Positions 46,687-64,000 of a DNA stretch of 64,000 bases are shown here, in pieces. Numbering within the stretch: position 1 is the first letter of the stretch; the number at the start of each line of letters is the position of its first letter. Source of the stretch: Ancylobacter sp. WKF20 (GTDB lineage Bacteria; Pseudomonadota; Alphaproteobacteria; Rhizobiales; Xanthobacteraceae); the NCBI RefSeq assembly GCF_029760895.1, contig NZ_CP121679.1, positions 2,866,001-2,930,000 of the forward strand. Direction: 5' to 3'. Under the pieces are notes generated by a model. It saw only the letters and a list, made by a program, of their open reading frames with translations. It was not told the DNA's origin and did no database searches. Made by a program: the position numbers and the translations under genes.

Positions 46687-48986
46687 AGCGAGCTGCTCTG
46701 CTGATCATGCTGGGAGGCGCCGTCCTCCCCGCGATCGCTCAGCAGATCGAGCTCCCGACAGGCTCCGGATCCACCACCAACCGCCCCAAGGTCGACGAGA
46801 CCGCCCTGCGCTACTTCGCCTCCCAGGGTGATACGCGCCGCCTCGAAGCCGAAATCGCCCGCCTGCGCGCGCTCTACCCGGACTGGTCCCCGCCCGGCGA
46901 CCTGTTCGGGCCGCAGTCCGATGTCGAGCTCGAGCGCATGTGGAAGATGTATGCCGAGGGCAAGTACAGCGATGTGCGCAGCGCCATCGCCGCCAAGCAG
47001 GCCGCGGATTCGTCCTGGGAGCCGCCGGCGGACCTGATCGCCCGGCTCAACGAGGCCGAGACCCGCCAGCGCCTGATCAACGCCTCAGACGGCCAGCAGT
47101 GGAACACCGTGCTGCGGCTCGCCACCGACCAGCCGGGCATCCTGACCTGCACCAATGTCGACATTCTCTGGCGCGTGGCCGAAGCCTTCGCCAAGACCAA
47201 TCAGGTGCCGCGCGCGCTCGACGCCTACACCTATGTGCTGACCAACTGCAACGACGCCAATGAACGGCTGGCGACGATGCAGAAGGCCATCCCGCTGCTG
47301 ACGGACGATCAGATCGCCAATCTGATGAAGCTCGAGCGCAAGGATGCCGAGGGCAAGCCGGAATTCGACGTGCTGCGCGACGATCTCATTCGCCGCCGCA
47401 TGGGCGCCGCCGCCGAGAACCCGGAATATTCGGTCCCCGAGGCTGACATCAAGCGGCTCGAAGTGCTCGCCAAGCAGAATGACCAGCCGGGCGACCCGCT
47501 GCTGCTGGGCTGGTATCTGTTCCGCCATGACGAGGCCAGGCGCGCGCTCGACTGGTTCAAGCTCGCGCTCGACCGCAAGGGCGGCCCGAAGTCGGCGGAA
47601 GGCTATGTGCTGGCGCTGAACTTCCTCGGCCGCGCGCTGGAAGCCGAGCCGATCGCCTTCGAGTGGCGCGATTCCGCCCCGGAGAACAACAAGGCCTATC
47701 TCGACGTCGTCATCAGCCTGCTGACGGCCGACCCGCCGCCGGTGCTGGACGAGATCGTGCTGGCGCGCTTCAGCCCTGTCGTCATGCGCGACAAGTACGT
47801 GCCGGGCGCACAGGCGCTGGGCTGGTACGCCTACAATACCGGGCAGATCGTCACCGCCCAGTCCTGGTTCGAGACCGCGCTGAACTGGGATCCGAACGAC
47901 GAGCCGTCCGCCTATGGCCTGGCGCTCACCTTCTGGCGCCTCGGCGACCGGGCTCGCCTCGCGGCCATCGTGCAGGCCTGGGGTGCCCGCTCCGAGCGCA
48001 TCGTCGCGCTGGTCGATCCCAATGTCCGCGCCCGGCTCGAGGCCCGCAACGCCCAGACCTCGCATCTGCGCATCACCGATCCGCTGGTGGCCGCCGCCGC
48101 CCGCATGACCCCGACCCCGACGCTCACCCCGCCGCCGATCGGCCAGCCGACCATCGGCGCGGGCCGGACCTATGCGCCGGGCGCGGTGAACTACCCGACG
48201 GCGCCGAGCGCGACCACCGCCATGTCCTATGCCGGGCAGGCCTTCCAGCCGATCCCGCAGCAATTCCAGGGGGCTTCCGGCGCGGTGCGCACCCCCGGCA
48301 CGGCGCAGTTCCAGCCGATCCCGCAGCAGGGTGAAAGCTATGCCGGCCAGCCCGGCACCGGCTTCGCGCCCATCCCCGCCGTCACCGCCGATCAGGGCTA
48401 TGCCAGCGAGCCCGTGCCCACCCCGCCGCGCCGGCGCAACCTCGCCCAGTCGACCGCCCGCTCGGGCAATGCGGCGGCGGGCGGCGGCTCGGGCGGAGCG
48501 GCCGGCGAGGCGCTGGCGCGCGCCTGGCAGCTCATGGAGCTGAACCGGCCGATGGAGGCGATCCCCTCCTTCGACTACGCCATCAAATACGGCACGGGCC
48601 GCGTCGCCGAAGATGCCGCCTATGGCAAGTCGCTGGCCTATATCCGCAAGGGCATGACCAATCAGGCGCAGGCCGCCGCGCTCGAAGCGCCGCAGAACCC
48701 GCGCCGCTCGCTCCAGCTCACCGGCGACCTGCTGGCCCAGAGGGCGCTCGAATTCTACCGCGACGGGCGCTATGTCGAGGCGATCATCGCGCTCGACGAG
48801 CGCGCCCGGCTCGGCCCGGAGCAGCAGGATCTGATGATGCTGCGGGCGTGGAGCTACTACCACATCCGCGACTTCCAGTCGGCCAACCGCCTCTTCAAGG
48901 CCCTCTCGCTGCAGGGCAACAAGGAAGCGATGAGCGGCGTGCTCGCCGTCGACGCCGCCACGCGCAAAACCCGCGACGCCTACTGA
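46677..48986 (+). CDS. periplasmic TPR protein of cellulose locus (BcsK-like)
   Basis: A 769-residue protein with a signal peptide (LKRAALLIMLGGAVLPAIAQ) and repeated helical TPR-like units (for example ALRYFASQGDTRRLEAEIARL, VAEAFAKTNQVPRALDAYTYV, LGWYAYNTGQIVTAQSWFETAL). These are interrupted by a Pro/Gln-rich stretch (about residues 475-605) and followed by further TPRs (ARAWQLMELNRPMEAIPSFDYA, EFYRDGRYVEAIIAL). It occupies the BcsC position but ends without a beta-barrel export domain, as in type III alphaproteobacterial loci where a BcsK protein is described. It overlaps bcsZ by 10 bases. Confidence 0.75.
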   Translation: MSLKRAALLIMLGGAVLPAIAQQIELPTGSGSTTNRPKVDETALRYFASQGDTRRLEAEIARLRALYPDWSPPGDLFGPQSDVELERMWKMYAEGKYSDVRSAIAAKQAADSSWEPPADLIARLNEAETRQRLINASDGQQWNTVLRLATDQPGILTCTNVDILWRVAEAFAKTNQVPRALDAYTYVLTNCNDANERLATMQKAIPLLTDDQIANLMKLERKDAEGKPEFDVLRDDLIRRRMGAAAENPEYSVPEADIKRLEVLAKQNDQPGDPLLLGWYLFRHDEARRALDWFKLALDRKGGPKSAEGYVLALNFLGRALEAEPIAFEWRDSAPENNKAYLDVVISLLTADPPPVLDEIVLARFSPVVMRDKYVPGAQALGWYAYNTGQIVTAQSWFETALNWDPNDEPSAYGLALTFWRLGDRARLAAIVQAWGARSERIVALVDPNVRARLEARNAQTSHLRITDPLVAAAARMTPTPTLTPPPIGQPTIGAGRTYAPGAVNYPTAPSATTAMSYAGQAFQPIPQQFQGASGAVRTPGTAQFQPIPQQGESYAGQPGTGFAPIPAVTADQGYASEPVPTPPRRRNLAQSTARSGNAAAGGGSGGAAGEALARAWQLMELNRPMEAIPSFDYAIKYGTGRVAEDAAYGKSLAYIRKGMTNQAQAAALEAPQNPRRSLQLTGDLLAQRALEFYRDGRYVEAIIALDERARLGPEQQDLMMLRAWSYYHIRDFQSANRLFKALSLQGNKEAMSGVLAVDAATRKTRDAY

Positions 48987-49045
48987 CCCGCGACGCCTGC
49001 TGACCGGCGACGCCGACGGAGGCCGTCGCCGGCGGCGGGGAAAAC

Positions 49046-49141
49046 TGGCGGAAGAGAGTGGGAGTCGAACCCACCAAGGACCGTCTCGCGGCCCCTACCG
49101 GATTTGAAGTCCGGCCCCATCACCGGATGGGACGCTCTTCC
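49046..49141 (-). tRNA. selC: tRNA-Sec (anticodon TCA)
   Basis: Minus strand: GGAAGAGCG...CTCTCTTCC acceptor pair with encoded GCCA end. The anticodon arm GCCGGACTTCAAATCCGGT has TCA, the variable arm is long (GGGGCCGCGAGACGGTCCTT) and the T arm is GTGGGTTCGACTCCCAC. At 96 bases with CCA, with an 8-bp acceptor stem, it matches the bacterial selenocysteine tRNA. It is charged with serine, converted by SelA using SelD-made selenophosphate, and delivered by SelB. It overlaps the last 47 bases of selB. Confidence 0.98.
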
Positions 49142-51113
49142 ATCGCCCGCCTGTCGCGGGAAGTTCACTCTCGCCGATCGCGCCGAACAGGTCCAGCCGG
49201 TGCGGGTTGATGCGGCGCTGGTCGCCCCGGCGCAGCGTCACGCCATGGCGGTCGAAAAACTCCAGAATCTGGATAGCCACCTTGCGGCCGGCCGGCGCCG
49301 CGTCGCGCTCGACCCGGTCGCGAAAGGTGCTGGCGCCGAACTGCCGGTCGGGTGAGGCCGCGGCGAGTTCGGCGGCCATGCCGACCAGTTCGGCGACGCT
49401 AGCGCGCAGGAAGAAATGATCGTGCGCCACCTCGTCCACCCGGCCGAGCCGGGCCAGCAGCTTCATCAGCCGGCGAATATCGGCTTCCGCCTCGCCCAGC
49501 AGCCCGGCGAGATCACGCACGCGCGGCGGGCGGAAGCGCTCGGCGCCGCCGAGCCTGGGGGCGATGGCCTCCCAGACAATTTCATCGGCTTCCGTAAGTC
49601 GGACCTCATGGCCGGCAAGGCGCACCCAGGCGCCCTCCAGCACCAACCCGCCTTCCTCGGCGAGCCGACGCAGCGCCTCGGTAAAGGCGGGCTTGGGCAG
49701 GCGCGGGGTGAGGGAAAGCCGCAGCTTCTCCGCCCCCATGCCGGCCAGATCGGGATTGGCGGCGTGGAAACCGGCGAGCGTCTCCAGCATCGCCTCGCGG
49801 TACAGCGCCCAGCGCCGCACGGAGAGGACGATGCGCGCGCCGGGCGACCCGAACAGGATGAGCCCGAGCGCCGCCGCCAGATGCTCGGTCGCGCCGATCT
49901 CCAGCGCCCGGTCGCGGACGAAGCCGTCGAGATCGAGATGATAGGGATCGAGATCGAGCAGCCGCGCCAGCACCGTCGGCGCGTCGCCGGCTTCCAGCGC
50001 CGCGAGCTGCGCCAGCCGCTCCGGCGTCCGCCGCTTGCGGGCCGGGGCGCGCAGATCGAGGAAGCGTCCGCCGCCGATGGTCCGCTGGGCCGAGGTGTCG
50101 CGAATGACATAGCGGTCGCCCACCGCCGCCGCGATCGGCCGGTCGAGCACGAGCTGCGCCCACCCCTCCCCGCCGGGCGCGATCGCCTCGTCCGACAGCG
50201 GCACCAGCCGCGCGCCGACCTCGACCGAGGCATGGTGCAGCCGCACCGGGAACCACGCGCCGAGCGGCTTCGGCTCACCCGCGAGGACGGTGACGCTCGC
50301 GTCGATCCGCACGGTGGGGGCGTGCAGCGCGGGGTCGAGCACCATGTCGCCGCGATGGATGGCGTCATGGGTGATGCCCTCGCCGGCGAGATTGAGCGCG
50401 CAGCGGTCCCCGGCGCGGCCCTCCTCCGCCCGGCGGTTCTGCGCATGGATGGAGCGCACGCGCGCCGTGAGGCCGGAGGGGCTGACGCTCACACTGTCGC
50501 CCAGCCGCACGGCACCGGAGAGCACCGTGCCCGTCACCACCGTGCCGGCGCCCGCCAGGGTGAAGCAGCGATCCACGGCGAGGCGAAACCGCCCCTCCCC
50601 CGCGCGTCCGTGAAAAGCGGCGGCCATGGCGACGAGGCGGCCGCGCAGATCGTCCACCCCCTCGCCGGTGACCGACGAGACCGGCAGGATCTCCGCCCCC
50701 TCAAGGCCCGTGCCCTCGATCAAAGCGGCGATCTCGGCGCTCACCTGCGCCCGGCGATCCGCGTCGGCGAGGTCCGCCTTGGTCAGCGCGACGACCCCCC
50801 GGCGGATGCCGAGCAGGTCGATCAGCGCCAGATGCTCGCGGGTCTGCGGCATTACCCCGTCATCGGCGGCGACGATCAGCAGCGCCGCGTCGATGCCGCT
50901 CGCCCCGGCGAGCATGGTGTGGATGAACTTTTCATGGCCGGGCACGTCGATGAAGCCGAGCGTGCCGGCCTCGGTCGGCAGATAGGCGAAGCCGAGGTCG
51001 ATGGAGATGCCCCGCGCCTTCTCCTCCTTCAGCCGGTCGGTATCGACCCCGGTGAGCGCGCCCACCAGCGCGGTCTTGCCATGGTCGATATGCCCGGCCG
51101 TGCCGATGATCAT
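49095..51113 (-). CDS. selB: selenocysteine-specific elongation factor SelB
   Basis: EF-Tu-like GTPase that carries Sec-tRNA to UGA codons bearing a SECIS hairpin. GTPase motifs: [26 protein letters not shown] and ALTKADL. The domain II/III barrel follows, then four winged-helix domains (about residues 390-660) that bind SECIS; the last includes [23 protein letters not shown]. 672 residues. The final 15 codons and the TAG stop are inside selC, the tRNA gene that SelB serves. It overlaps selA by ATGA. Confidence 0.97.
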
Positions 51114-52522
51114 GGCGCCGCCCCCAGCGCGTCGAGGCTGGCGAGAAATCCCGCCTCATCCTCCAGGCAGCGCAGATCGAGGAGCAAAGCGCCCTCATTG
51201 ACGCGCCCGATGACCGGCACCGGCAAACCGCGCAGCCGCGTGGCGAGGCCGTTGAGCGCCCCGCCAGAGGCGTCCCCGGCCGGGCGGATGGCGAGCGCGG
51301 CGCTGGCCAGCGTTTCCAGCGGCAGCGCGCCGGAACCGATCTGACTGGTGCAGTCCGCCACCTCGACCGTGAAGCCCGGCCCGAGCCGCGCCGCCACCGG
51401 CGCGGTGAGCCGTTCGGCCACGGCGCGCAGTTCGTCGCGCGTGCGGGCGAGCAGGCGCAGCGTCGGCAGGCGGGCGGCGAGCCGGTCCGGATCGCGGTAG
51501 AGCTTCAGCGTCGCTTCCAGCGCGGCCAGCCGGATCTTGTCCACCCGCAGCGCCCGCTTCATCGGGTTGCGGTTCACTTTCGCGATCAGATCCTTGCGCC
51601 CGACGATGAAGCCGGTCTGCGGCCCGCCAAGCAGCTTGTCGCCGGAGAAGGTCACGAGGTCCGCGCCCTCCGCCACCGCCTCGCGCACGGTCGGCTCATG
51701 GGCGAGGCCGATGCGGGCGAGATCGACCAGCGTGCCGGAGCCGAGATCGTTCACCAGCGGCACGCCGCGCGCCCCGGCAATGCTCGCCAGCTCGCGCGCG
51801 CTCACCTCCTTGGTGAACCCTTCGATCCGGTAATTCGAGGTGTGGACCTTCAGCACCAGCCCGGTCTCGGGGGTGAGCGCGCCCTCATAATCGCGCGCAT
51901 GGGTGCGGTTGGTGGTGCCGACCTCGATGAGCCTCACCCCGGCGCGGGCCATGATGTCCGGCATGCGGAAGGCGCCGCCGATCTCGATCAGCTCGCCGCG
52001 CGAGACGATGGCTTCCTTGCCGAGCCCGAGCGTGTTGAGCACCAGCAGCACGGCGGCGGCGTTGTTGTTGACGACGGTGGCGTCCTCCGCCCCCGTCAGC
52101 TCGATCAGCAGATCGCGCACATGGTCGTCGCGCTCGCCGCGCGTGCCGGTCGACAGGTCGAATTCCAGCGCGACGGCGCTGCGCATGGCGGCGGTGGCCG
52201 CCGCCACCGCCTCTTCCGCCAGCAGCGCCCGGCCGAGATTGGTGTGCAGCACCGTGCCGGTGAGGTTGAACAGCGGGGCGAGCGAGGCCCGCGCCGCGCC
52301 TTCCAGCGCGCTGGTGGCGGCGAGCGCCACATGGTCCGGGGTGGGCAGGCTCGCCAGCTTCCCGGCGAGGAGGCGGGCGCGCACCTCGTCCAGCGCGCCG
52401 CGCACCGCCTGCGTCACCGGCAGGCGGCCGAAGCGGGCGATGGCGAGCTGGCCGGAGGGCGTCTTCAGCACCGCATCGACGGCGGGCAGGTCGCGCAGGG
52501 AGGGACGGATGGGCGTATCCAT
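51110..52522 (-). CDS. selA: L-seryl-tRNA(Sec) selenium transferase
   Basis: PLP enzyme that turns Ser-tRNA(Sec) into Sec-tRNA(Sec) with selenophosphate. Motifs: [62 protein letters not shown], the PLP lysine in [20 protein letters not shown] and [24 protein letters not shown]. 470 residues, normal for the decameric bacterial enzyme. It lies 10 bases after fdhE on the same strand. Confidence 0.98.
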
Positions 52523-52532
52523 GGCCGCCCCC

Positions 52533-53447
52533 TCAATAGCCGAGCAGGAACGGGTTGAACGCCGCCCGCCGGTACGGCCCCTCGCGCATCATCATGTCGA
52601 GCCCGAGCGAGCCGATATCGTCGGCCACCGGCTCGATGGTCATGTCCTTGTTCTGGTAGAGCACCTTCACATAGGTGCGGCACTCGTCGCAGGTCTCGGC
52701 CTTGATGGTCTCCGGCCCGCCCTCGATGCCCTGATAGCCAATGCCCTTGGTCGAGCCGCAGGCGCAGCAGCGGATGCGCACATAGTTCCACAGCGTCGCG
52801 CAGAGCGAACAGGCGCAGTAGCGGTTGCCATGGGCGTTCGGCCACTCGACGATGAGCGAGGCGACGGGCGGCCCGCCGCAGGCCGGGCACACGCCATCGC
52901 CCACCGGCACCAGCGCCTTGGCATCGAGCGTCGCGGCGAGACGCGCGGCATGCACCTGCAGCGCGGCGGCGACATAGACATGCTCGGCCAGCGTCTCCAC
53001 CGGCATGTCATGGGCGAGCACGTCCCGCACCATCTGCGCGCGCAGCGCCCCGTCGGCGAGGCGCACGCGGGTGAGCGCCGCCTCGGCCTCCTCCGGCATC
53101 CGCACCTTGGCGGCAGCGTCGAACAGCGCGTCGAGCGTGGCGTCCAGCGTGTCGTCGAGCTTCACGCCCACGCGGTCGATCGGCGGCATCTCGAAGCTGC
53201 GGGCGCGCTCCAGCGCCTGCGGATCGGGCGCGGCGACGGGCGGCAGGGTCGGCACAATCGCGTGCTGGCCATCGACGATACCCGCCACGAAATTGAGAAA
53301 CGGCGCCATCGGGCTCACCGCCGCATAGCTGCGCAGCCGCACAGCGCGGGCGGCGAACAGCGTCGCGGGATCGGGCAGCACGGCGAAGGGCGGGGTGGTG
53401 ACCCCGCCAATCATCGAGGGGTCGGGCTGAAGGTCTTCCGGCATCAT
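52533..53447 (-). CDS. fdhE: formate dehydrogenase accessory protein FdhE
   Basis: Cytoplasmic rubredoxin-like iron protein needed for maturation of Tat-exported respiratory formate dehydrogenases. The C-terminal domain has the four Cys pairs CPACGG, CSLC, CCACGST and CDEC, and PMAPFLNFVAGIV is the N-terminal signature. 304 residues. ATGATG at 53447/53444 is preceded by GTGAGGAC, so the second ATG has the better spacing; a longer frame begins at 53609 inside a REP element and is rejected. Confidence 0.95.
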   Translation of the reverse strand: MMPEDLQPDPSMIGGVTTPPFAVLPDPATLFAARAVRLRSYAAVSPMAPFLNFVAGIVDGQHAIVPTLPPVAAPDPQALERARSFEMPPIDRVGVKLDDTLDATLDALFDAAAKVRMPEEAEAALTRVRLADGALRAQMVRDVLAHDMPVETLAEHVYVAAALQVHAARLAATLDAKALVPVGDGVCPACGGPPVASLIVEWPNAHGNRYCACSLCATLWNYVRIRCCACGSTKGIGYQGIEGGPETIKAETCDECRTYVKVLYQNKDMTIEPVADDIGSLGLDMMMREGPYRRAAFNPFLLGY

Positions 53448-53552
53448 GTCCTCACGAACCGCACGGGCCACGTGTTGATGTGGGGCGTCGCGGGCTCGCG
53501 CCAACGCCCCGCTGCGGAACCGCGCGTGGAACGAAGCGCGGCATTGATTGAT

Positions 53553-53647
53553 CGTCATCCCCGCCAAGCGCGGAGCGCGCAGAGCCGGGATCGGCATTGT
53601 TCGCGGCACGCGATCCCGGATCGACCTTCGGCCGTCCGGGATGACGG
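53553..53647. repeat. REP-like element between fdhE and fdoI
   Basis: GTCATCCCCGCCAAGCGCGG...GAGCCGGGATC followed by GCGATCCCGGATCGACC...CGTCCGGGATGACGG: two palindromic units of the 15-kb family, convergent. They lie inside an otherwise tight minus-strand operon. Confidence 0.75.
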
Positions 53648-53658
53648 TTGCCCCCCGC

Positions 53659-54372
53659 TTACTCGGCGGGCGTCGCCGGTGGCTTGCCGGGACGGCTCAC
53701 CAGTTCGCGCAGCCATTTGCGATGATGGCGCCAGGCCCAGCCGCCGGTGACCTCGCCGCGCGTCATCGCGCCGATCGTCCCCTTCACCCAGATCGCCGCA
53801 TAGACGTGGATGATCCAGACGCAGATGATGACCACCGCCGCCATGGCGTGGACGAGGATCGCCCAGCGCTTTTGCGGGATGGTGGTGAGGTCATAGAAAT
53901 ACTGGTCCCACATCACGATGCCCGAGCCGATGAGCACGATGATGAGGCCGGACATCGCCCAGAACACGCCCTTCTGGCCGGCATTGTACTTGCCGACCTC
54001 CGGCATCTTCTCCTCGCGCCCGGCGAGCAGGTCGGCGGAATGCGCCACCCAGTCGACATCCTCGCGCGCCGGCAGGTTGGCGCGCCAGAAGCGGATGAAC
54101 AGCAGGGCAAAGGAGACGAACAGCACCACGCCGATCCACGGGTGCAGCGTGCGCGTCCACTGCCCGCCGCCGAACAGATTGGTGAGGAAGAACAGCTTCG
54201 GCGTGAACAGCGCGAGGCCGGACAGCGCCAGCAGCACCAGGCTGATGGCGGTGATCCAGTGGTTGATGCGCGCGCCCACCGTGTAGCGCTTCACCTGCAC
54301 GGGGTGGCCGGGCCGGACGGCATCGCCCGGCTCGACATCATCGGGGACATGCTGATGCGGGATCGCGGCCAT
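53659..54372 (-). CDS. fdoI: formate dehydrogenase gamma subunit (cytochrome b556)
   Basis: Membrane di-haem cytochrome b that passes electrons from the beta subunit to quinone. Four hydrophobic segments are visible: NHWITAISLVLLALSGLALF, HPWIGVVLFVSFALLFIRFW, FWAMSGLIIVLIGSGIVMW and ILVHAMAAVVIICVWIIHVY. His residues at the segment ends (HWIT, HP, VHAM, IHVY) are the likely haem ligands. ATG 54372 overlaps the fdoH stop as TGATG; a GTG one codon earlier is possible. 237 residues. Confidence 0.95.
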   Translation of the reverse strand: MAAIPHQHVPDDVEPGDAVRPGHPVQVKRYTVGARINHWITAISLVLLALSGLALFTPKLFFLTNLFGGGQWTRTLHPWIGVVLFVSFALLFIRFWRANLPAREDVDWVAHSADLLAGREEKMPEVGKYNAGQKGVFWAMSGLIIVLIGSGIVMWDQYFYDLTTIPQKRWAILVHAMAAVVIICVWIIHVYAAIWVKGTIGAMTRGEVTGGWAWRHHRKWLRELVSRPGKPPATPAE

Positions 54373-55355
54373 CACACCCTCCCCTCGGGACGGGACGCCT
54401 CGTTGGGCGGCGGCGCGGTGCCGGCCAGCAGCTTCTCGGCGTTTTCCTCATCCTCCTCGGCCACCTTGTTCGGGCCGGCGACCATGTAGTGGAGGAAGCC
54501 CGCCGCGGCGGCAAAGCCCATCACGGCGAGACCGACATATTTGGTCACGCCCTTCCAGGTCTCGACGATCGGCGAGATGCGCGGATTGTCCGGCAGCCCG
54601 GCATAGAGCGAGGGCTGGTCGGCGTGCTGGAGCACATACATGACATGCGTGCCGCCGACGCCCGGCGGGTCGTAGAGGCCGGCATTCTCATAGCCGCGGG
54701 ACTTCAGGTCGGTGATGCGGTGTGCGGCCCAGTCCTTCATCTCGTCCTTGGTGCCGAAGACGATGGCCTGGGTCGGGCACGCCTTCTGGCAGGCCGGGCC
54801 CTGGCCCACCGCCACGCGGTCCGAGCACAGCGTGCACTTGTAGGCGGTGTGATCGACCTTGGAGATGCGCGGGATGTTGAACGGGCAGCCCTTGATGCAA
54901 TAGCCGCAGCCGATGCAGTTCTCGTGCTGGAAGTCCACGATGCCGTTGGAATACTGCACGATGGCGCCCGGCGAGGGGCAGGCCTTCAGGCAGCCGGGAT
55001 CCTCGCAATGCATGCAGCCATCCTTGCGGATGAGCCATTCGAGGTTCTCGGTCTCCGGGTTCACCCATTCGGTGAAGCGCATCAGGGTGAAGGTGTTCGG
55101 CGTCAAATCCATCGGGTTGTCATAGACGCCGTGGTTGAAGCCGATCTCCTCGGTCAGGTTGTTCCATTCCAGGCACGCGGCCTGGCAGGCCTTGCAGCCG
55201 ATGCATTTGGACACATCGATCAGCTTGGCGACCTCGGTCAGCCGCTGCGCGGGCGGCGTGACCTCGGAGGCCGAGCGGCGAAGAATGTCCTTCTCGCCGA
55301 ACCTGGCGCTGGCGGCATCGGGGGCGGTCGACGGGTTGGGAATTGGGGGAAACAT
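54372..55355 (-). CDS. fdoH: formate dehydrogenase beta subunit (4x[4Fe-4S])
   Basis: Ferredoxin-type electron-transfer subunit on the periplasmic face. Four clusters are signalled by [45 protein letters not shown] and [23 protein letters not shown]-terminal anchor helix ([20 protein letters not shown]) holds it in the membrane, as in FdnH/FdoH. 327 residues. It is followed by fdoI with a small overlap and preceded by fdoG after 13 bases. Confidence 0.97.
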
Positions 55356-55368
55356 CTGCGCCGCCTCC

Positions 55369-58300
55369 CTACGCCACCGGCCCGGTGGACGCTTCGATAT
55401 TGACCATGAAGGCCTTGAACTCGGGCGTCTCGATATTGGCGTCGCCCACGAAGGGGGTCAGCACATTGGCCGGGAAACCCTTGCGCGCCGCGCCGACGAA
55501 GCCCCAGTGAATGGGGATGCCGACCACGTGGACGGTCTTGCCGTCGATGGCCATCGGCCTGATGCGCTTGGTGACGACCGCCTTGGCGAGGATCTCGCCG
55601 CGCTTCGACCACACCCGGACCCAGCCACCCTTGGTGATGCCCTTCTCCCGCGCCAGTTCCTCGGAAAGCTCGACGAACTGCTCGGGCTGGAGCACCGCGT
55701 TCACGTGGTTGTTCTTGGTCCAGTAGTGGAAGTGCTCGGTGAGCCGGTAGCTGGTCGCCGCATAGGGGAAACCGGGGTCTCCCACATCGGCGAACTGCGC
55801 CCAGTCATCCTTGAACACGCGCGCCACCGGGTTGCCGCGCACCTTGGGCGCGATCACGTTGGCGACCGGGCTCTCGAACGGCTCGTAATGCACCGGGAAC
55901 GGCCCATCCCGCATCATCTTGCGCGCGAACAGGCGTCCGACGCCCTCCGCGTTCATGATGAAGGGCCCCACATCCTGCGGCTTAGCGGTGGGGGCGATAT
56001 CCGGCACGTCGTAGCCGGACCATTTCGCCCCGTCCCATTCGATCAGCTTGCGTGAGGGATCCCACGGCTTGCCGTCGCGGTCGCAGGAGGCGCGGTTGTA
56101 GATGATGCGCCGATTGGCCGGCCAGGCGAACGACCATTTCAGATAGGCGCCGGTATTGTCCGGGTCGGAATTGTCCCGGCGCGCCATCATGTTGCCGGCC
56201 TCGGTCCAGCAGCCGGAATAGATCCAGCAGCCCGCCGCGGTCGAGCCGTCGTCGCGCAGCACGCCGAAGCCGGAGACCTGCTTGCCCGCTTCCAGCACCT
56301 TCTTGGTCGAGTCGTTCGGATCGAACACGTCGGAGATGACGTAGCCGTTCATCTCCTTGGCGAGTTCCTCCGGCGCCGGCTCGCCCGGATCCTTGTAGGG
56401 CCAGTACAGGTTGAGGATCGGGTCGGGGAACGCCCCGCCCTCCTTGCGGTACATGTCCTTCAGCCGCAGATGGATCTGCGCCATGATCCAGGCATCGGTG
56501 CGCGCCTCGCCGGGGGGCGAGCCGCCCGGCCAGTGCCATTGCAGCCAGCGGCCGGAATTGACCAGCGAGCCCTCATCCTCCGCGAAGCAGGTGGTGGGGA
56601 GCTGGAGCACCTCGGTCTGGATGCTGGCCGGGTCGGTCTTGTTGTAGACGCCGTGATCTTCCCAGAAGCGCGCCGTCTCGGTCTGCAGCGGGTCCATGAC
56701 CACGAGCAGCTTGAGCTTGGAGAGCGCCTGCGAGAGCTTGGCCCGGTTGGGGAAGGCCTGGAGCGGGTTGAAGCCCTGGCAGATGTAGATGTTCATCTTG
56801 CCGTTCTTCATCAGCTCGAAGGCGCGCAATATGTCGTAGAAGGCGACATCGAGCTTGGGCAGGTAGTTATAGGCCCAGTCGTTCTGCGCCGTCGCCGCCG
56901 GGCCGTACATGGCCTTCATGAAGCTGACGAAGAACTTCCGGTAGTTCTGCCAGTAGCTCATCTGGTTCGGCCGCAGCGGCTTGAAGCCGCGCGTCGACAT
57001 GTAGGTCGCGATATCCGGCTCCTTCTCCGTCGGCAGGTTCAGATAGCCGGGCAGCATGTTGGACATGAGCCCGATATCGGTCAGCCCCTGGATGTTGGAG
57101 TGGCCGCGCAGCGCGTTCATGCCGCCGCCACGGATGCCGATATTGCCGAGGATGAGCTGCAGCATCGCCATGGTGCGGATGTTCTGCGAGCCCTTGGAGT
57201 GCTGCGTCCAGCCGAGCGCGTACATCGACGTCATCGCCTTGGTGGGCGAGGACGTCTCGGCGATCATCTGCGCGACCTTGAGGAACTTGTCCTTGGGCGT
57301 GCCGCAGATGCGCTCGACCAGCTCGGGCGTGTAGGTCGCGACATGCGCCTTCAGGAGGTTCCAGACGCAGCGCGGGTGCTGCAGCGTCTCGTCCACCACG
57401 GCGAAGCCGTCCGGCCCGATTTCGTACTCCCAGCTGTCCTTCACATAGTCGCGCTTCTCCGGGTCGTAGCCGGTGAACAGCCCGTCCTGATAGGTGAAGC
57501 CCTCCTTCACGATGAAGGACGCGTTGGTGAAGGCCTTGGTGTACTCCCACTGCACCTTGTCGGTCTGCATGCAGTGATTGATCACGCCGAGCAGGAAGGC
57601 GATGTCGGTGCCCTGCCGGATGGGCGCGTAGAAATCCGCCACCGCGGCGGAGCGGGTGAAGCGCGGATCGACGACGATCAGCTTCGCGCCACGTGTGGCC
57701 TTCGCCTCCGTGACCCATTTGAAGCCGCAGGGATGGGCTTCAGCGGCATTGCCGCCCATGATGACGACGAGGTCCGTGTTCCGAATGTCGGTCCACGAAT
57801 TGGTCATTGCGCCACGGCCAAATGTTGGGGCGAGACTCGCCACCGTCGGGCCGTGTCAGACGCGCGCCTGATTGTCGAAAACCAGCATCCCCGTGCTTCG
57901 CACCACCTTATAGGTGGCGAAAGCGGTCTCGTTGGTGGTGGCGGAGGCCGCCAGCATACCGGTCGTGGTCCAGCGGTTGACGGTCACGCCGTCCTTGTTG
58001 GTGGCGACGAAATTGGCGTCGCGATCGTCCTTCATGGCGCGGGCGATCTTGTCGAGCGCCGCCTCCCAGGAGATCGGCTCGAACTTGTCCGAGCCCGCCT
58101 TGCGGATCATCGGCTGGGTGAGCCGCGTCTCGGATTTCACGATGTCGCGCAGCGCCGCGCCTTTGGGGCAGAGCGTGCCGCGATTGGTCGGGTGGTCGGC
58201 GTCGCCCTCGATATGGACGATGTCGGCCTTCTCACCCTTTCGCAGGTCGCCCTTGGAATAGATGATGATGCCGCAGGCGACCGAGCAATAGGTGCAGGTG

Positions 58301-58455
58301 TTGCGGGTCTCGGTGGTGTTGGCGAGATGGAACGGCTTGATATAGGCCGCCACCGCCGCTTCTGCCTCGCTGAAGCCGAAGGCTCCCAGCGTCGTACCCG
58401 CGATCCCCGCTCCCGACGTTTTCAAGAACGTCCGGCGCGAGAGCTCCATATTCAT
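55369..58455 (-). CDS. fdoG: selenocysteine-containing formate dehydrogenase alpha subunit
   Basis: Molybdopterin/tungstopterin catalytic subunit oxidising formate to CO2 in the periplasm. 1028 residues if the TGA at 57858-57856 (codon 200) is read as Sec; the frame is then [24 protein letters not shown], the exact context of bacterial FdnG/FdoG. The Tat signal is [17 protein letters not shown], and the [4Fe-4S] site is CTYCSVACG...[21 protein letters not shown] and other MGD-binding segments follow, and the C-terminal domain ends [17 protein letters not shown] lies before the ATG. A conventional caller would split it into 58455-57856 and 57843-55369. Confidence 0.97.
57808..57858 (-). promoter_or_regulatory. 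SECIS element with UGA-Sec codon
   Basis: Directly after UGA (57858-57856) the mRNA folds as GG-U-GGCG-AGUCU-CGCC-CC. The upper stem is GGCG/CGCC (57841-57838 with 57832-57829), the loop is AGUCU (57837-57833), U57842 is bulged and GG/CC lies below it. The bulged U and the G-U in the loop are the contacts of SelB in the Escherichia coli SECIS, and the loop is identical to that of fdnG as I know it. Confidence 0.92.
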
Positions 58456-58513
58456 GGCGACCCTCCCGAGTTACCTTCCTATCCCCATCGGCCGATAGGG
58501 TAATCCAATCGTC

Positions 58514-58551
58514 AGGCTAGTTTCGAGCGGCTCCAATGTCAAACATTGGAG
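58514..58551 (-). promoter_or_regulatory. predicted fdo promoter with 21-bp palindromic operator
   Basis: Minus strand: TTGACA (58542-58537), 17 bases, TAGCCT (58519-58514). The -35 box lies in a perfect palindrome, CTCCAATGT-n3-ACATTGGAG (58531-58551). A dimeric regulator bound there would control fdoGHI-fdhE-selA-selB-selC. The leader to the fdoG ATG is about 50 bases. Confidence 0.65.
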
Positions 58552-58705
58552 GGGCCGACCTTGGTAGGAAAAGCCGTTGTGTTTCAGTAGGTTCGTGGCA
58601 TACCAGCACCGTCGGCGTGGCTTTTGGCAATGATGCGCCGCACCATCGCACAGGCTATCAATCCGGCGGATTGACGCGGCGAACCGACCGGCGCAGCATC
58701 GCGCC

Positions 58706-59332
58706 GTGTTCGCCTTGAAGGCTCCCGCGTGGCGGGGCGCACTGAAAATCCTGATCGGCCTTGTCCTTGCTTCCCTTGCGTCACTCACGACGGGAGCGAG
58801 CGCGCTCGCCGCGTCCCTGCCCGTGCCCGGAAGCGCGGCGCCGGCCCTCACCCTGCCGAGCCTCGACGGACCGCCGCTGAGCCTTGCTGCGCTGCACGGC
58901 CGGCCGGTGGTGGTTCACTTCTTTGCGACCTGGTGCGAGCCGTGCCGGGAGGAACTTTCCGGCCTGTCCCGCCTCGCCGCGCAGCTCGATCCGGCGACCG
59001 GACCCGTGATTCTGGCGGTCGATGTCGGCGAGGTGCCGGTGCGCGTGCGCCGCTTTCTCGACCGGCAGTTCAAGGGCGCGGGCCTCGGCTTCCCCGTGCT
59101 GATCGACGAGGACCGCGCGCTGAGCCGCGCCTTCGGCGTCACCGTCCTGCCGGCCACCCTGCTGCTCGACCCCGCCCATATCATCCGCCGCACCGCCGAG
59201 GGCCCCATCGACTGGGACCACCCGGACGCCCGCGCGGCGCTGGACCGCCTTTCCACCTCAACAGCCACGCCGGATGCGGCGGCGCTGCCTCCTCTCACCG
59301 ACCGGGAGCCCCCTCATGACCAGCCGTCGTGA
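58706..59332 (+). CDS. TlpA-like exported thioredoxin
   Basis: A 208-residue protein with an N-terminal signal/anchor (ALKILIGLVLASLASLTTGASALAA) and a thioredoxin fold of the TlpA/ResA type: PAPALTLPSLDG-like entry, VVVHFFATWCEPCREELSGL with the CxxC pair, FPVLIDEDRALSRAFGV and the cis-Pro LPATLLLDP. It should act as a periplasmic thiol-disulfide reductant. The GTG start at 58706 follows the divergent fdo promoter region. It overlaps the next gene by 17 bases, so the two are co-translated. Confidence 0.85.
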   Translation: MFALKAPAWRGALKILIGLVLASLASLTTGASALAASLPVPGSAAPALTLPSLDGPPLSLAALHGRPVVVHFFATWCEPCREELSGLSRLAAQLDPATGPVILAVDVGEVPVRVRRFLDRQFKGAGLGFPVLIDEDRALSRAFGVTVLPATLLLDPAHIIRRTAEGPIDWDHPDARAALDRLSTSTATPDAAALPPLTDREPPHDQPS

Positions 59333-60458
59333 TTTCCTGAAAGCCGGCGCCGCGCTCGCCGCCGCGACCACGCTTCCCGCCCACGCCTTCGCTCAAAGCG
59401 CCGCGACCGCGGGCGCCGCGGCGGGCGCCGCGACCTTCGCCCCCTCGCCCGGCAAATGGCGGCAGTTCGAGGTGGTGACGACGCTCGACGTCGCCCCGCT
59501 CGACGGCAAGAGTGGGCCGGCCCAGGCCTGGGTGCCGCTGCCCTCCTACAGCGCCGCCGACTGGTTCAAGCCCGGCGAGAACCGCTGGACCACCAACGCG
59601 GCGAGTGCCACCGTGGTGAAGGATCCCCATTACGGCAGCGACATGCTGCACCTCGTCTGGGCCGCGGGCGAGACCGCGCCCAAGGTCGAGATCATCTCCA
59701 CCTTCGCCACCCGCGACCGCGCCACCGACCTCTCCAAGCCCGGCACCGTCGCCGCCCTCACGCCGGAGGAGCGCTCGCTTTTCCTCAAGGCGACCGACCT
59801 CATCCCCACCGACGGCATCGTCAAGACGACCGCCGACAAGATCACCGCCGGCAAGACGAGCGACCTTGAGAAGTCCCGCGCCATCTATGAATGGGTGGTC
59901 GAGAACACCTACCGCAACGCCGCCACGCGCGGCTGCGGCACGGGCGACATCGCCGCGCTGCTGACCAGCGGCAATCTCGGCGGCAAATGCGCCGATCTCA
60001 ACGCTCTGTTCGTCGGCCTCAACCGCGCCGCCGGCATTCCCGCGCGCGACATCTATGGCATCCGCGTCGCCCCCTCCGCCTTCGGTTACAAGAGCCTCGG
60101 CGCCAATTCGCCGACCATCTCCAAGGCGCAGCATTGCCGCGCCGAGGTGTGGCTGGACGGCTTCGGCTGGGTCGCCACCGATCCGGCGGATGTGCGCAAG
60201 GTCGTGCTGGAGGAACCGCCGGGCAAGAACGCCATGGACGACGCCAAGGTGGTCGCCGCCCGCAAGGCGCTGTTCGGCTCGTGGGAGGGAAACTGGCTCG
60301 CCTATAATGACGGCCACGACATCGCCCTGCCCGGCTCCTCCGGCCCCAAGCTCGGCTTCCTCATGTACCCGCAGGCGGAAGTCGCGAGCCTGCGCCAGGA
60401 CTGCCTCGACCCGGACGCCTTCCGCTACACCATCAAGGCCAGCGAGATCTCGGCGTGA
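59316..60458 (+). CDS. Tat-exported transglutaminase-like protein
   Basis: A 380-residue protein with Tat signal SRRDFLKAGAALAAATTLPAHAFA. The transglutaminase-like core shows YEWVVENTYRNAATRGCG, GNLGGKCADLNALFVGLNRAAGIPARDIYG (catalytic Cys), KAQHCRAEVWLDGFGWVATDPADV (His and Asp). Members of this superfamily are proteases or peptide-linking enzymes; the substrate is unknown. Export by Tat, the FDH route, and its place between a thioredoxin and selD suggest a role near that enzyme, which is inference only. Confidence 0.82.
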   Translation: MTSRRDFLKAGAALAAATTLPAHAFAQSAATAGAAAGAATFAPSPGKWRQFEVVTTLDVAPLDGKSGPAQAWVPLPSYSAADWFKPGENRWTTNAASATVVKDPHYGSDMLHLVWAAGETAPKVEIISTFATRDRATDLSKPGTVAALTPEERSLFLKATDLIPTDGIVKTTADKITAGKTSDLEKSRAIYEWVVENTYRNAATRGCGTGDIAALLTSGNLGGKCADLNALFVGLNRAAGIPARDIYGIRVAPSAFGYKSLGANSPTISKAQHCRAEVWLDGFGWVATDPADVRKVVLEEPPGKNAMDDAKVVAARKALFGSWEGNWLAYNDGHDIALPGSSGPKLGFLMYPQAEVASLRQDCLDPDAFRYTIKASEISA

Positions 60459-60468
60459 TGCCGAGCAT

Positions 60469-60558
60469 CGTCATCCCGGCCGAAGCGCAGCGAAGAGCCG
60501 GGACCGCTCGCCAATTTCATGCGATCCCGGATCGGCTTTCAGCCGTCCGGGATGACGC
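60469..60558. repeat. REP-like element upstream of selD
   Basis: GTCATCCCGGCCGAAGC...GAGCCGGGACCGCTCG then GCGATCCCGGATCGGC...CCGTCCGGGATGACGCC: two convergent palindromic units of the same family, ending 18 bases before the selD ATG. Confidence 0.75.
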
Positions 60559-60576
60559 CTTGCAGAGGTAGACGAC

Positions 60577-61641
60577 ATGCTCGACAAGCCGACCGACACC
60601 CCCGCCCCGTTCCGCCTCACCAGCCTCGCCCATGGCGGGGGCTGTGGCTGCAAGCTGGCGCCGTCGGTGCTGCGCGAATTGCTGGCCGAACAGCCGGCGG
60701 CGGGGGCGTTCACCCAGCTCCTCGTCGGCACCGAGACCGGCGACGACGCGGCGGTGTGGCAGCTGGATGACGAGACCTGCCTCATCGCCACCACCGACTT
60801 CTTCATGCCGATGGTGGACGATCCCTTCACCTTCGGCCGCATCGCCGCGACCAACGCGATTTCCGATGTCTACGCTATGGGCGGCAAGCCGCTGCTGGCG
60901 CTGGCGATCCTCGGCATGCCGCTCGGCAAGCTCGATCCCGCGCTGGTGCGCGAGATCCTCAAGGGCGGCGCCTCCATCGCCACCGAGGCGGGCATCCCCA
61001 TCGCCGGCGGGCATTCCATCGATTCCCCCGAGCCGATCTATGGCCTCGCCGTCATCGGCACCGCCCACCCCTCTCACATCCGCCGCAACAGCACGGCGAA
61101 GGCTGGGGACGCGCTGATCCTGACCAAGCCGCTCGGCGTCGGCATCTATTCGGCCGCCTTCAAGAAGGAGGCGCTGTCGCCGGCCGCCTATGCCGAGATG
61201 GTCGGCGCGATGACGCAGCTCAACAAGGTCGGCACGGCGCTCGGCCGGGACAGCGATGTTCACGCCGTCACCGATGTCACCGGCTTCGGTATTCTCGGCC
61301 ATGGGCTGGAAGTGGCGCGCGGCGCCGGGCTGCGGCTGGAGATCGAGGCGGCCGCCCTGCCCTTCCTCGATGAGGCCCCCGCGCTGGCGCAGGCCGGCTT
61401 CGTCACCGGCGCCTCGCACCGCAACTGGGCGAGCTATGGCGAGGGCGTGACGCTCCCCGCCGGCCTGCCAGAGTCGCAGCGCCATCTGCTCACCGATCCG
61501 CAAACCGCTGGTGGCCTGCTCGTCGCCTGCGCGCCCGACGCCGCCCCGCGCCTTCTCGCCCAGATCCGGGCGGAAGGTTTTTCCCGCGCGGCGATCATCG
61601 GGCAGGCGAGTGCGGGCGAGCCCGGCATCACCGTGCGCTAA
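60577..61641 (+). CDS. selD: selenide, water dikinase (selenophosphate synthetase)
   Basis: Makes selenophosphate, the selenium donor for SelA, from selenide and ATP. The N-terminal [10 protein letters not shown] has the active-site Cys (not Sec) and Lys. [59 protein letters not shown] and the C-terminal [21 protein letters not shown] and [14 protein letters not shown] complete the family pattern. 354 residues. No ybbB (2-selenouridine) gene lies in the window, so Sec synthesis is the visible use. Confidence 0.97.
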
Positions 61642-61646
61642 AGCGT

Positions 61647-62543
61647 TCAGCCGATCCGTTCGCTGAGGAAATCGACGAAGGCGCGGATGCGGGCGGCGAG
61701 ATAATCGTGCCCCACGAACACCGCATGCAGCAGCTCGATGTCGCCGCCGTTGAACTCTTCCAGCACCGGCACCAGCCGCCCCGCCGCGATGTCCGCCTCC
61801 GCCACATAGCGGGCGATGCGGGCAAGGCCGAGGCCGTCCAGCGCGAGGCGGCGCACCATGGCGCCGCTATTGCCCTCGAGATTGCCGGTGACGGTGAGCG
61901 CGTAGCTCTCCCCGCTCGACGGGTCGCGGAACGGCCAGTCATCCATCGAGCGGCGGAAATTGAAGCGCAGGCAATTATGCGTGGCGAGATCGGCCGGGGT
62001 GCGCGGCGTGCCGTGCCGCGCCAGATAGGACGGCGCGGCGACGATGACGCGCCGGCTCTCCAATATCTTGCGCGCCATCAGCGTGGAATCGCGCATTGGC
62101 CCGGCACGCAGGGCGATGTCGGCGCGCTCGGTCACCAGATCGATCACCTCGTCGGTGAGGGACAGGTCAAGCTGCACCTGCGGGTAGCGTCCGAGAAATT
62201 CCGGCACCAGCGGCACGAGGCACTGCTCGCCGAAGCCGACCGTAGCGCTGACCCTAAGCCGCCCGCGCGGGGTGGCGGCGGCACCGGCGGCGACGACGCG
62301 CTCCGCCTCGTCGATCTCGCCGAGAATGCGCCGCGCCCGCGCCGCATAGGCCTCGCCTTCCGGGGTCAGCGTCACCACGCGGGTGGAGCGCACCAGCAGG
62401 CGCGTGCCGAGCCGCTCCTCCAGCCGCGTCACCAGCTTGCTGACGGCGGAAGGCGAAAGGCCGAGCCGGCGCCCGGCGGCGGAGAAGCTGCCGCGCTCGA
62501 CCACCTCGACCAGCACCTGCATCTCGCCCGCGCGGTTATCCAT
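61647..62543 (-). CDS. LysR-family transcriptional regulator
   Basis: A 298-residue regulator. The N-terminal winged helix reads MQVLVEVVERGSFSAAGRRLGLSPSAVSKLVTRLEERLGTRLL, and the effector domain begins RGRLRVSATVGFGEQCLVPLVPEFL. It resembles the CrgA/DsdC-like group common near efflux genes. ATG 62543 fits the family better than the in-frame ATG at 62564. It is divergent from the MFS gene across about 138 bases, and is its likely controller. It converges on selD with 5 bases between the stops. Confidence 0.92.
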   Translation of the reverse strand: MDNRAGEMQVLVEVVERGSFSAAGRRLGLSPSAVSKLVTRLEERLGTRLLVRSTRVVTLTPEGEAYAARARRILGEIDEAERVVAAGAAATPRGRLRVSATVGFGEQCLVPLVPEFLGRYPQVQLDLSLTDEVIDLVTERADIALRAGPMRDSTLMARKILESRRVIVAAPSYLARHGTPRTPADLATHNCLRFNFRRSMDDWPFRDPSSGESYALTVTGNLEGNSGAMVRRLALDGLGLARIARYVAEADIAAGRLVPVLEEFNGGDIELLHAVFVGHDYLAARIRAFVDFLSERIG

Positions 62544-62681
62544 TCGCCCGCCTGTCGCACTCATGAATTCAATTCACAGCCCTTCGTCCGACATCGCGGC
62601 TTATCGCGCAAGTGGCTGGCCCGCATATTGCCGCCAACCCCTTGCACGCGCCGCATCCGTCTGCGGCGCCGGAGACCCCCG

Positions 62682-63863
62682 ATGCCTCTTGCCCTGTTCG
62701 CCCTCACCATCGCCGCCTATGCGATCGGCACCACCGAATTCGTCATTGTCGGCCTGCTGCCCACCGTCGCCGCCGATCTCGCCATCGACCTGCCGCGTGC
62801 CGGGCTGATCGTCAGCGTCTATGCGCTCGGCGTCACCTTCGGCGCGCCCATCCTCACCGCGCTGACCGGCCGCGTGGCGCGCAAGCCCCTGCTGCTCGGG
62901 CTGATGGCGCTGTTCGTCATCGGCAATTCGGCGGCAGCGCTGAGCCCGGGCTACGAGACGCTGCTTGTCGCCCGCGTCGTCTCGGCCTTCGCCCATGGCG
63001 TGTTCTTCTCGGTCGGCGCCACCATCGCCGCCGATCTCGTGCCGGCCGACCGGCGGGCCTCGGCCATCGCGCTGATGTTCATGGGCCTCACCGTCGCCAT
63101 CGTCACCGGCGTGCCGCTCGGCACCTTCATCGGCCAGAACTTTGGCTGGCGCGCCACCTTCTGGGCGGTCGCCGGGCTCGGCGTTGTCGCCTTCCTCGCC
63201 ATCGCGGCGCTGCTGCCGAGCACCCTGTCGCGCGCCGAACCCGCCCGGCTGATCGAACAGTTGCGCGTACTGGGTTCCGGTCGGCTGCTCATCGTCTACG
63301 GCATGACGGCGCTCGGCTATGGCGGCACCTTCGTCGCCTTCACCTATCTCGCCGTCATCCTCGAGCACATCACCGGCTTTTCCAGTGCCAGCGTCAGCCT
63401 GATCCTGGTGCTCTACGGCCTCGCCATTGCGGCGGGCAATCTCGTCGGCGGGCGCATTGCCGACCGTGACCCGGTGAAAGCGCTCACCGTACTGTTTCTC
63501 GCGCAGGCCGGCGTGCTGGCGCTGTTCTCGCTCACCGCCGTCTCGCCCTGGCTGGCGCTGCCGACGCTGGCGGCGCTCGGCTTCCTGTCCTTCGCCAATG
63601 TGCCGGGCCTGCAGATCTATGTGGTCGAGCTCGCCCGCCGCTACCGGCCCGGCGCCGTGGATGTCGCCTCCGCGCTCAACATCGCCGCGTTCAATCTCGG
63701 CATCGCCGTCGGCGCCTGGGTGGGTGGGCGCGTCGTCGCCTCCCCGCTCGGCCTTGGCGCGACGCCCTGGGTCGGCGCGCTGCTGGTGGCCGGCGCGCTC
63801 CTCCTCACCCTGTGGAGCGGCGCGCTCGACCGCCGCGCCCGCCCGGCGGCCTGCCCCGCCTGA
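62682..63863 (+). CDS. MFS transporter, DHA1 (drug/arabinose-type efflux)
   Basis: A 393-residue, twelve-segment major facilitator. The start LALFALTIAAYAIGTTEFVIVGLLPTVAADL and the loop GAPILTALTGRVARKPLLLGLM are typical of the YdhP/AraJ-like DHA1 group exporting drugs, sugars or nucleosides. The substrate is not known. ATG 62682 has GGAG 8 bases upstream. Confidence 0.92.
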   Translation: MPLALFALTIAAYAIGTTEFVIVGLLPTVAADLAIDLPRAGLIVSVYALGVTFGAPILTALTGRVARKPLLLGLMALFVIGNSAAALSPGYETLLVARVVSAFAHGVFFSVGATIAADLVPADRRASAIALMFMGLTVAIVTGVPLGTFIGQNFGWRATFWAVAGLGVVAFLAIAALLPSTLSRAEPARLIEQLRVLGSGRLLIVYGMTALGYGGTFVAFTYLAVILEHITGFSSASVSLILVLYGLAIAAGNLVGGRIADRDPVKALTVLFLAQAGVLALFSLTAVSPWLALPTLAALGFLSFANVPGLQIYVVELARRYRPGAVDVASALNIAAFNLGIAVGAWVGGRVVASPLGLGATPWVGALLVAGALLLTLWSGALDRRARPAACPA

Positions 63864-63903
63864 GGTCCGTCGGCCCTCGCGGCACACTGTGTGAGAACCG
63901 ATA

Positions 63904-63935
63904 ACGGACCGGAGCGACCGCCGGTCCGTGCTGTT
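63904..63935 (+). terminator. terminator after the MFS gene
   Basis: ACGGACCGG-n8-CCGGTCCGT is a perfect 9-bp stem followed by GCTGTTTCTGATTT, 40 bases after the stop. A further small GATTTG...CAAATC stem follows at about 63939-63959. The rest to the window end shows nothing recognisable. Confidence 0.65.
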
Positions 63936-64000
63936 TCTGATTTGCTTCGCCGCCAAATCATGCTGTCTGGCCAAGGGCCGGACGGCAATTTGAGGTGGAG

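Follow-up and report, generated by a model that had tools for sequence, protein, structure and literature searches.

The region described here lies in the genome of Ancylobacter sp. WKF20 (contig NZ_CP121679.1), in a stretch of 64,000 nucleotides (positions 2,866,001 to 2,930,000) that was analysed as a whole and is referred to below as the window. Within 12.6 kb of the window lie selC, selB, selA, fdhE, fdoI, fdoH, fdoG and selD, which together form a selenocysteine (Sec)-decoding set with one formate dehydrogenase (FDH); fdoG has an in-frame UGA and a selenocysteine insertion sequence (SECIS). A preliminary description of the sequence had reported this complete set, and its coordinates proved exact. 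On the minus strand are selC and, upstream of it, selB, selA, fdhE, fdoI, fdoH and fdoG. The plus strand carries a TlpA-like gene and a gene for a transglutaminase-core protein with a twin-arginine translocation (Tat) signal, both enclosed in the cluster, followed by selD. SelB, SelA, FdhE, FdoI, FdoH, FdoG and SelD each pass the NCBIfam equivalog cut-off of their own model.

The tRNA and elongation factor genes share part of their sequence, a feature that the preliminary description had overlooked. selC (49046 to 49141, minus strand) was identified by ARAGORN as a tRNA-Sec of 96 nucleotides with anticodon TCA and an encoded CCA end; it scores 79.4 bits against Rfam RF01852, and its predicted fold has a long variable arm (-48.1 kcal/mol, z -2.7). 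selB, encoding the Sec-specific elongation factor (49095 to 51113, minus strand; TIGR00475, 395 bits), enters selC on the same strand, so that its final 47 nucleotides (49095 to 49141), including the stop codon, are also tRNA sequence. The stop, TAG at 49095 to 49097, read in the sequence, coincides with tRNA nucleotides 45 to 47.

The remaining minus-strand genes follow closely. selA, for Sec synthase (51110 to 52522; TIGR00474, 586 bits), overlaps the selB start by 4 nucleotides (ATGA), and fdoH overlaps fdoI by the same length, as in translationally coupled operons. fdhE, for the FDH maturation factor, occupies 52533 to 53609 (TIGR01562, 311 bits); the model match begins at residue 60, and the true start is probably downstream of the listed GTG. 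The cytochrome b subunit gene fdoI (53659 to 54375; TIGR01583, 189 bits) and the Fe-S subunit gene fdoH (54372 to 55355; TIGR01582, 480 bits) precede fdoG in coordinate order. The latter (55369 to 58455; TIGR01553, 1414 bits) encodes the Sec-containing catalytic subunit with a Tat signal (TAT_signal), and its frame is open from 58455 down to 55369 except for a single TGA, codon 200, at 57856 to 57858. A SECIS_3 element on the same strand (57803 to 57861; Rfam RF01989, 86.9 bits against a gathering threshold of 63) spans this codon. The selenide water dikinase gene selD (60577 to 61641, plus strand; TIGR00476, 430 bits) has no in-frame UGA. A 40-nucleotide repeat, 90% identical and palindromic-looking by eye, has one copy at the fdhE/fdoI boundary (53607 to 53646) and the other in the interval that separates the transglutaminase gene from selD (60518 to 60557).

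As far as searched, selA, selB, selC, selD, SECIS_3 and the Sec-containing FDH are each present once in the 4.63-Mb, single-contig genome, in support of the preliminary view of a complete set with one visible selenoprotein. There is one selA, one selD over the cut-off (with three weaker matches besides), one SECIS_3 and one FDH gene with an internal TGA; no second SECIS_3 or UGA-containing FDH was found, in a search for selenoproteins confined to these two features. Among the three matches listed of eight for the SelB query, one is selB and the other two are 32% identical over an EF-Tu-like part. Among the four listed of 12 for the tRNA-Sec model, selC scores 79 bits and the other three 52 to 46 bits; two of these three exceed the Rfam cut-off, and ARAGORN calls the three tRNA-Ser, tRNA-Ser and tRNA-Trp. 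FDH was likewise the only selenoprotein in the Sec-decoding Alphaproteobacteria examined in PMC1794560, according to the part of that paper available.

The arrangement is that of the fdoGHI-selABCD cluster of Alphaproteobacteria, for example on pSymA of Sinorhizobium meliloti (PMC8124441; available part of PMC1794560): the same gene set, fdoGHI followed by selA-selB-selC, one Sec-FDH and selD nearby. The order fdoGHI-fdhE-selA-selB-selC of the alphaproteobacterial Sec and formate dehydrogenase-O (FDH-O) cluster is present in the window. Two details differ. The selA and selB genes of the window are adjacent, with no gene between them, and downstream of selC there is a convergent tetratricopeptide repeat (TPR) gene rather than the ORF1 and ORF2 of PMC8124441. 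The TPR locus looks like one for cellulose synthesis, its neighbouring BcsZ scoring 151 bits, under the cut-off of 299. Between the end of the TPR gene and selC (48987 to 49045) is a strong hairpin, rich in GC but not followed by a run of T, perhaps a shared terminator.

Gene order is strongly conserved where the cluster occurs. Among 80 named loci, 72 hold fdoG, fdoH, fdoI, fdhE, selA and selB, the other eight being without one or more, and in all 72 the order fdoGHI-fdhE-selA-selB is colinear. Of these 72, 63 also have a selD match, which is divergent and upstream in 42 and lies downstream in 21; in one of the 63 (L066) the match has only 37% identity and is perhaps not SelD. The distance from selA to selB is less than 200 nucleotides in 33 of the 80 loci, as in the window, and 600 to 1200 nucleotides in the other 47; in one locus (L041) the gap holds a Sel1-repeat gene. 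SelB distribution was surveyed in 101 genomes, 30 of the genus, 31 of other genera of the family and 40 of other families of the order. Strong SelB matches were present in 30/30, 12/31 and 2/40, respectively, and each genome of the genus carries selB, selC and selD together in a stretch of about 13 kb or less of a single contig. The preliminary description had called the arrangement unusual, which these counts contradict. It had also proposed conservation of the order throughout the taxonomic order as the mark of an ordinary, vertically held cluster; this is so for colinearity and for presence in the genus, but not for presence in the other genera and families. The cluster is thus not universal in the order, a pattern that fits either loss or transfer. 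One genome of the family (G127) has two strong SelB genes (C8 and C15; E 4e-247 and 5e-217). A record titled Mycobacterium sp. KBS0706 (L057) contains a cluster of alphaproteobacterial type whose match values resemble those for Inquilinus limosus (L052 and L084), and its name may be a mislabel.

The same description had seen in the compactness of the set a module that could move as a unit. A recently acquired mobile module would be in keeping with the packing of a complete Sec set into 12.6 kb, with the patchy occurrence outside the genus, with the plasmid record that carries the cluster in one relative (L090) and with transfer at the level of classes, an older event inferred and published in PMC1794560, to judge by the available part of that paper. 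A pair of direct repeats of 21 nucleotides, 81% identical, at 48376 and 62761, also brackets the cluster; it was the only bracketing pair in a search that covered 47000 to 64000, and is short and weak enough to have arisen by chance. Within the genus, however, recent movement as a unit was not seen in the trees, since those of SelB and MurE for the 30 genomes have 19 of 27 splits in common and no starred branch of one conflicts with a starred branch of the other. The GC content over the cluster, in 4-kb windows, is 66 to 72%, against 67 to 71% elsewhere in the window, and none of the ten proteins scanned is an integrase. We consider recent acquisition of a mobile module very improbable; presence in all 30 genomes, SelB/MurE agreement and ordinary GC content lend no support to a mobile island within the genus. 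The cluster has apparently been held vertically within the genus.

Three genomes are placed differently by SelB and MurE, with sub-threshold support on one or both sides: Ancylobacter gelatini (G025) and the pair G005/G016. The tRNA-Sec of A. gelatini (L016 and L070) also differs in sequence from those of its SelB-tree neighbours, and local replacement of its cluster is possible.

The overlap of selB with selC belongs, like the cluster, to a kind already published, and it cannot be presented as a new discovery: selC nested in selB was described in PMC8124441 (Mukai 2021), with Azorhizobium caulinodans among the nested cases, and the overlap is restated in a 2026 review (PMC13188914, available part). 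The main text of PMC8124441 does not name Ancylobacter, Xanthobacter or Starkeya. As in the nested form, the selB coding sequence of the window runs into selC in the same direction; unlike it, the overlap is partial, limited to 47 nucleotides, with the stop within the tRNA, and the whole tRNA does not lie inside the selB frame. The published partial cases of Dyella and Luteibacter have the stop at tRNA nucleotides 46 to 48, compared to 45 to 47 here. Nested forms have the first tRNA nucleotide at codon position 1, and the window's clade has it at position 2, so that a shift of frame within the linker would account for the stop inside the tRNA in that clade.

After duplicates among the loci were collapsed on 400 residues, 106 distinct SelB sequences remained, with selC nested in 79, partially overlapping in 7 and separate in 15; no same-strand tRNA-Sec was found in the other five (L035, L079, L091, L121 and L122). 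What is added here is that a single genus spans all three states, with two origins of the partial one: its 30 genomes comprise 18 nested, 6 partial and 6 separate cases, and all five outgroups are nested. On the SelB tree with these outgroups, overlap state needs at least seven changes. Partial overlap arose twice on this tree, with 47 nucleotides in G000/G014/G018 and 22 nucleotides in G004/G024/G027. MurE groups G027 with G008 instead (93/82, sub-threshold), which bears on the history of the second partial origin. In Ancylobacter crimeensis (G017; L040 and L125), selC begins 193 nucleotides after selB, and no other SelB branch of the genus tree is as long as that of this species.

What is established about these families suggests how the parts of the cluster would work together. 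SelD would make selenophosphate, SelA would convert Ser-tRNASec to Sec-tRNASec, and SelB would deliver Sec-tRNASec to the SECIS of the fdoG mRNA; the Sec-containing FdoG would then be exported by the Tat route, mature with the help of FdhE and assemble with FdoH and FdoI into a respiratory formate dehydrogenase. The selA-selB pair presumably shares a transcript with selC, which lies at its 3' end. Because selC overlaps the selB frame by 47 nucleotides, an RNase P cut at the 5' end of the tRNA would detach the selB stop codon, and the selB mRNA left behind would have no stop. It is thus likely, by analogy with the model proposed in PMC8124441, that tRNA processing severs the selB stop and that one transcript can yield either tRNASec or full-length SelB. 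We take the region to be a standard alphaproteobacterial Sec/FDH-O cluster, vertical in the genus, whose partial selB-selC overlap would make tRNASec and SelB alternative products, and put the probability of this at roughly 0.88.

Several points weigh against this reading, and some of them would suit a different account of the overlap, in which it arose neutrally, through the crowding of genes in GC-rich DNA, and has no regulatory role. As many as 49 of 68 distinct tRNA-Sec sequences are free of stops in all three frames, so an open frame through selC alone is no proof of selection. The overlap is absent from 6 of the 30 genomes of the genus and is therefore dispensable; within the genus, five changes or more are required to account for the separate state, and by eye the selB tails beyond the tRNA look unconserved. 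On the other hand, the first tRNA nucleotide stands at codon position 1 in 78 of the 79 nested cases, the 79th (L055) reflecting a one-base mis-set of the tRNA end. Linkers of 7 to 48 codons, where measured, are open in nested cases (openness being part of the definition of the class), and nesting has been kept across many genera, for which shared descent accounts in part. On balance, we hold a neutral origin to be possible but rather less than probable. The 106 SelB sequences were gathered by similarity to the SelB of the window and are a non-random sample. MurE was the one marker by which vertical descent was judged, and it disagrees with SelB on 8 of 27 splits, with sub-threshold support on one or both sides. 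The single marker, together with the weak direct repeat that brackets the cluster, slightly lowered our confidence in the standard-cluster explanation, to the value given above.

The two genes enclosed between fdoG and selD form a pair on the plus strand, divergent from fdoG. The first (58706 to 59332) encodes a TlpA/ResA-type thioredoxin with Pfam AhpC-TSA/Redoxin matches, similarity to 3kcm (E 1.6e-23) and a CxxC motif, WCEPC, read in the sequence; its signal peptide was judged by eye only. The second (59274 to 60458) encodes the transglutaminase-core protein (PF01841, 82.7 bits; TAT_signal), probably starts at 59316, and had no relative at E 0.1 in a sequence search of the PDB. The preliminary description regarded the arrangement, with these accessory genes enclosed, as the unusual part, a view not sustained by the relatives: in the 68 named loci whose upstream sequence extends for 1.2 kb or more, a divergent transglutaminase gene adjoins fdoG in 35, a TlpA-like gene in 25 and both in 24. 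In a survey of 119 genomes of the family (transglutaminase at E up to 1e-60, SelB at E up to 1e-100), the transglutaminase was present in 46 and SelB in 53, with both in 43, transglutaminase alone in 3, SelB alone in 10 and neither in 63 (Fisher p 4e-19, uncorrected for relatedness). Counted by eye, 37 of the 43 have the transglutaminase gene on the contig of selB, the two spanning no more than about 13 kb, and in the other six (G036, G143, G148, G149, G159 and G164) the two are on different contigs. A sample of 288 further genomes of the class, all from outside the family, gave 9 with the transglutaminase. Two of these, of one genus, carry it beside fdoG; in the other seven, no fdo or sel gene was seen in the stretch around it (six by eye, without a family search). 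The transglutaminase is thus associated with the Sec trait at the level of the family and mostly not outside it. As a strict marker of Sec it is ruled out by the 10 SelB-only and 3 transglutaminase-only genomes and the cases outside the family. A. crimeensis has no close transglutaminase (best match E 9e-6).

In two of the three transglutaminase-only genomes, G153 and G177 (L156 and L157), the pair adjoins selD, selA and an FDH gene that also contains a UGA but is of a different type, its product sharing 27% or 26% identity with part of FdoG; the best model for the L156 protein is TIGR01591, at 629 bits just below the cut-off of 666. Their SelB is divergent and over the TIGR00475 cut-off. FDH-O as the sole partner of the pair is weakened by these cases, the FDH being of another type with a UGA. 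In the third, G181, an incomplete genome (72%), there is no SelB over the TIGR00475 cut-off, and selD and an fdoG fragment adjoin the transglutaminase gene. In G153 and G177 the pair thus keeps its place next to selD and selA although the SelB and Sec-FDH there are of distant types, which would be in keeping with an accessory role. Against a Sec-specific one are the 10 SelB-only genomes, the fact that only two of nine outside-family carriers have the transglutaminase beside fdoG, and G159, in which the pair is away from the sel genes, with no sel or fdo gene in the 18 kb examined around it. A literature search showed no title on a transglutaminase/TlpA pair among the ten listed of 342 matches. 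That the two proteins are unrecognised periplasmic accessory parts of selenium use in Xanthobacteraceae, for example in selenium supply or Sec-enzyme maturation, seems to us unlikely.

The cluster illustrates a known system well and in compact form. With its nested, partial and separate forms, the genus offers a natural series in which the proposed choice between tRNASec and SelB as products of one RNA could be tested between close relatives, and the transglutaminase and TlpA-like neighbours offer a lead to Sec accessory genes that have so far escaped notice.

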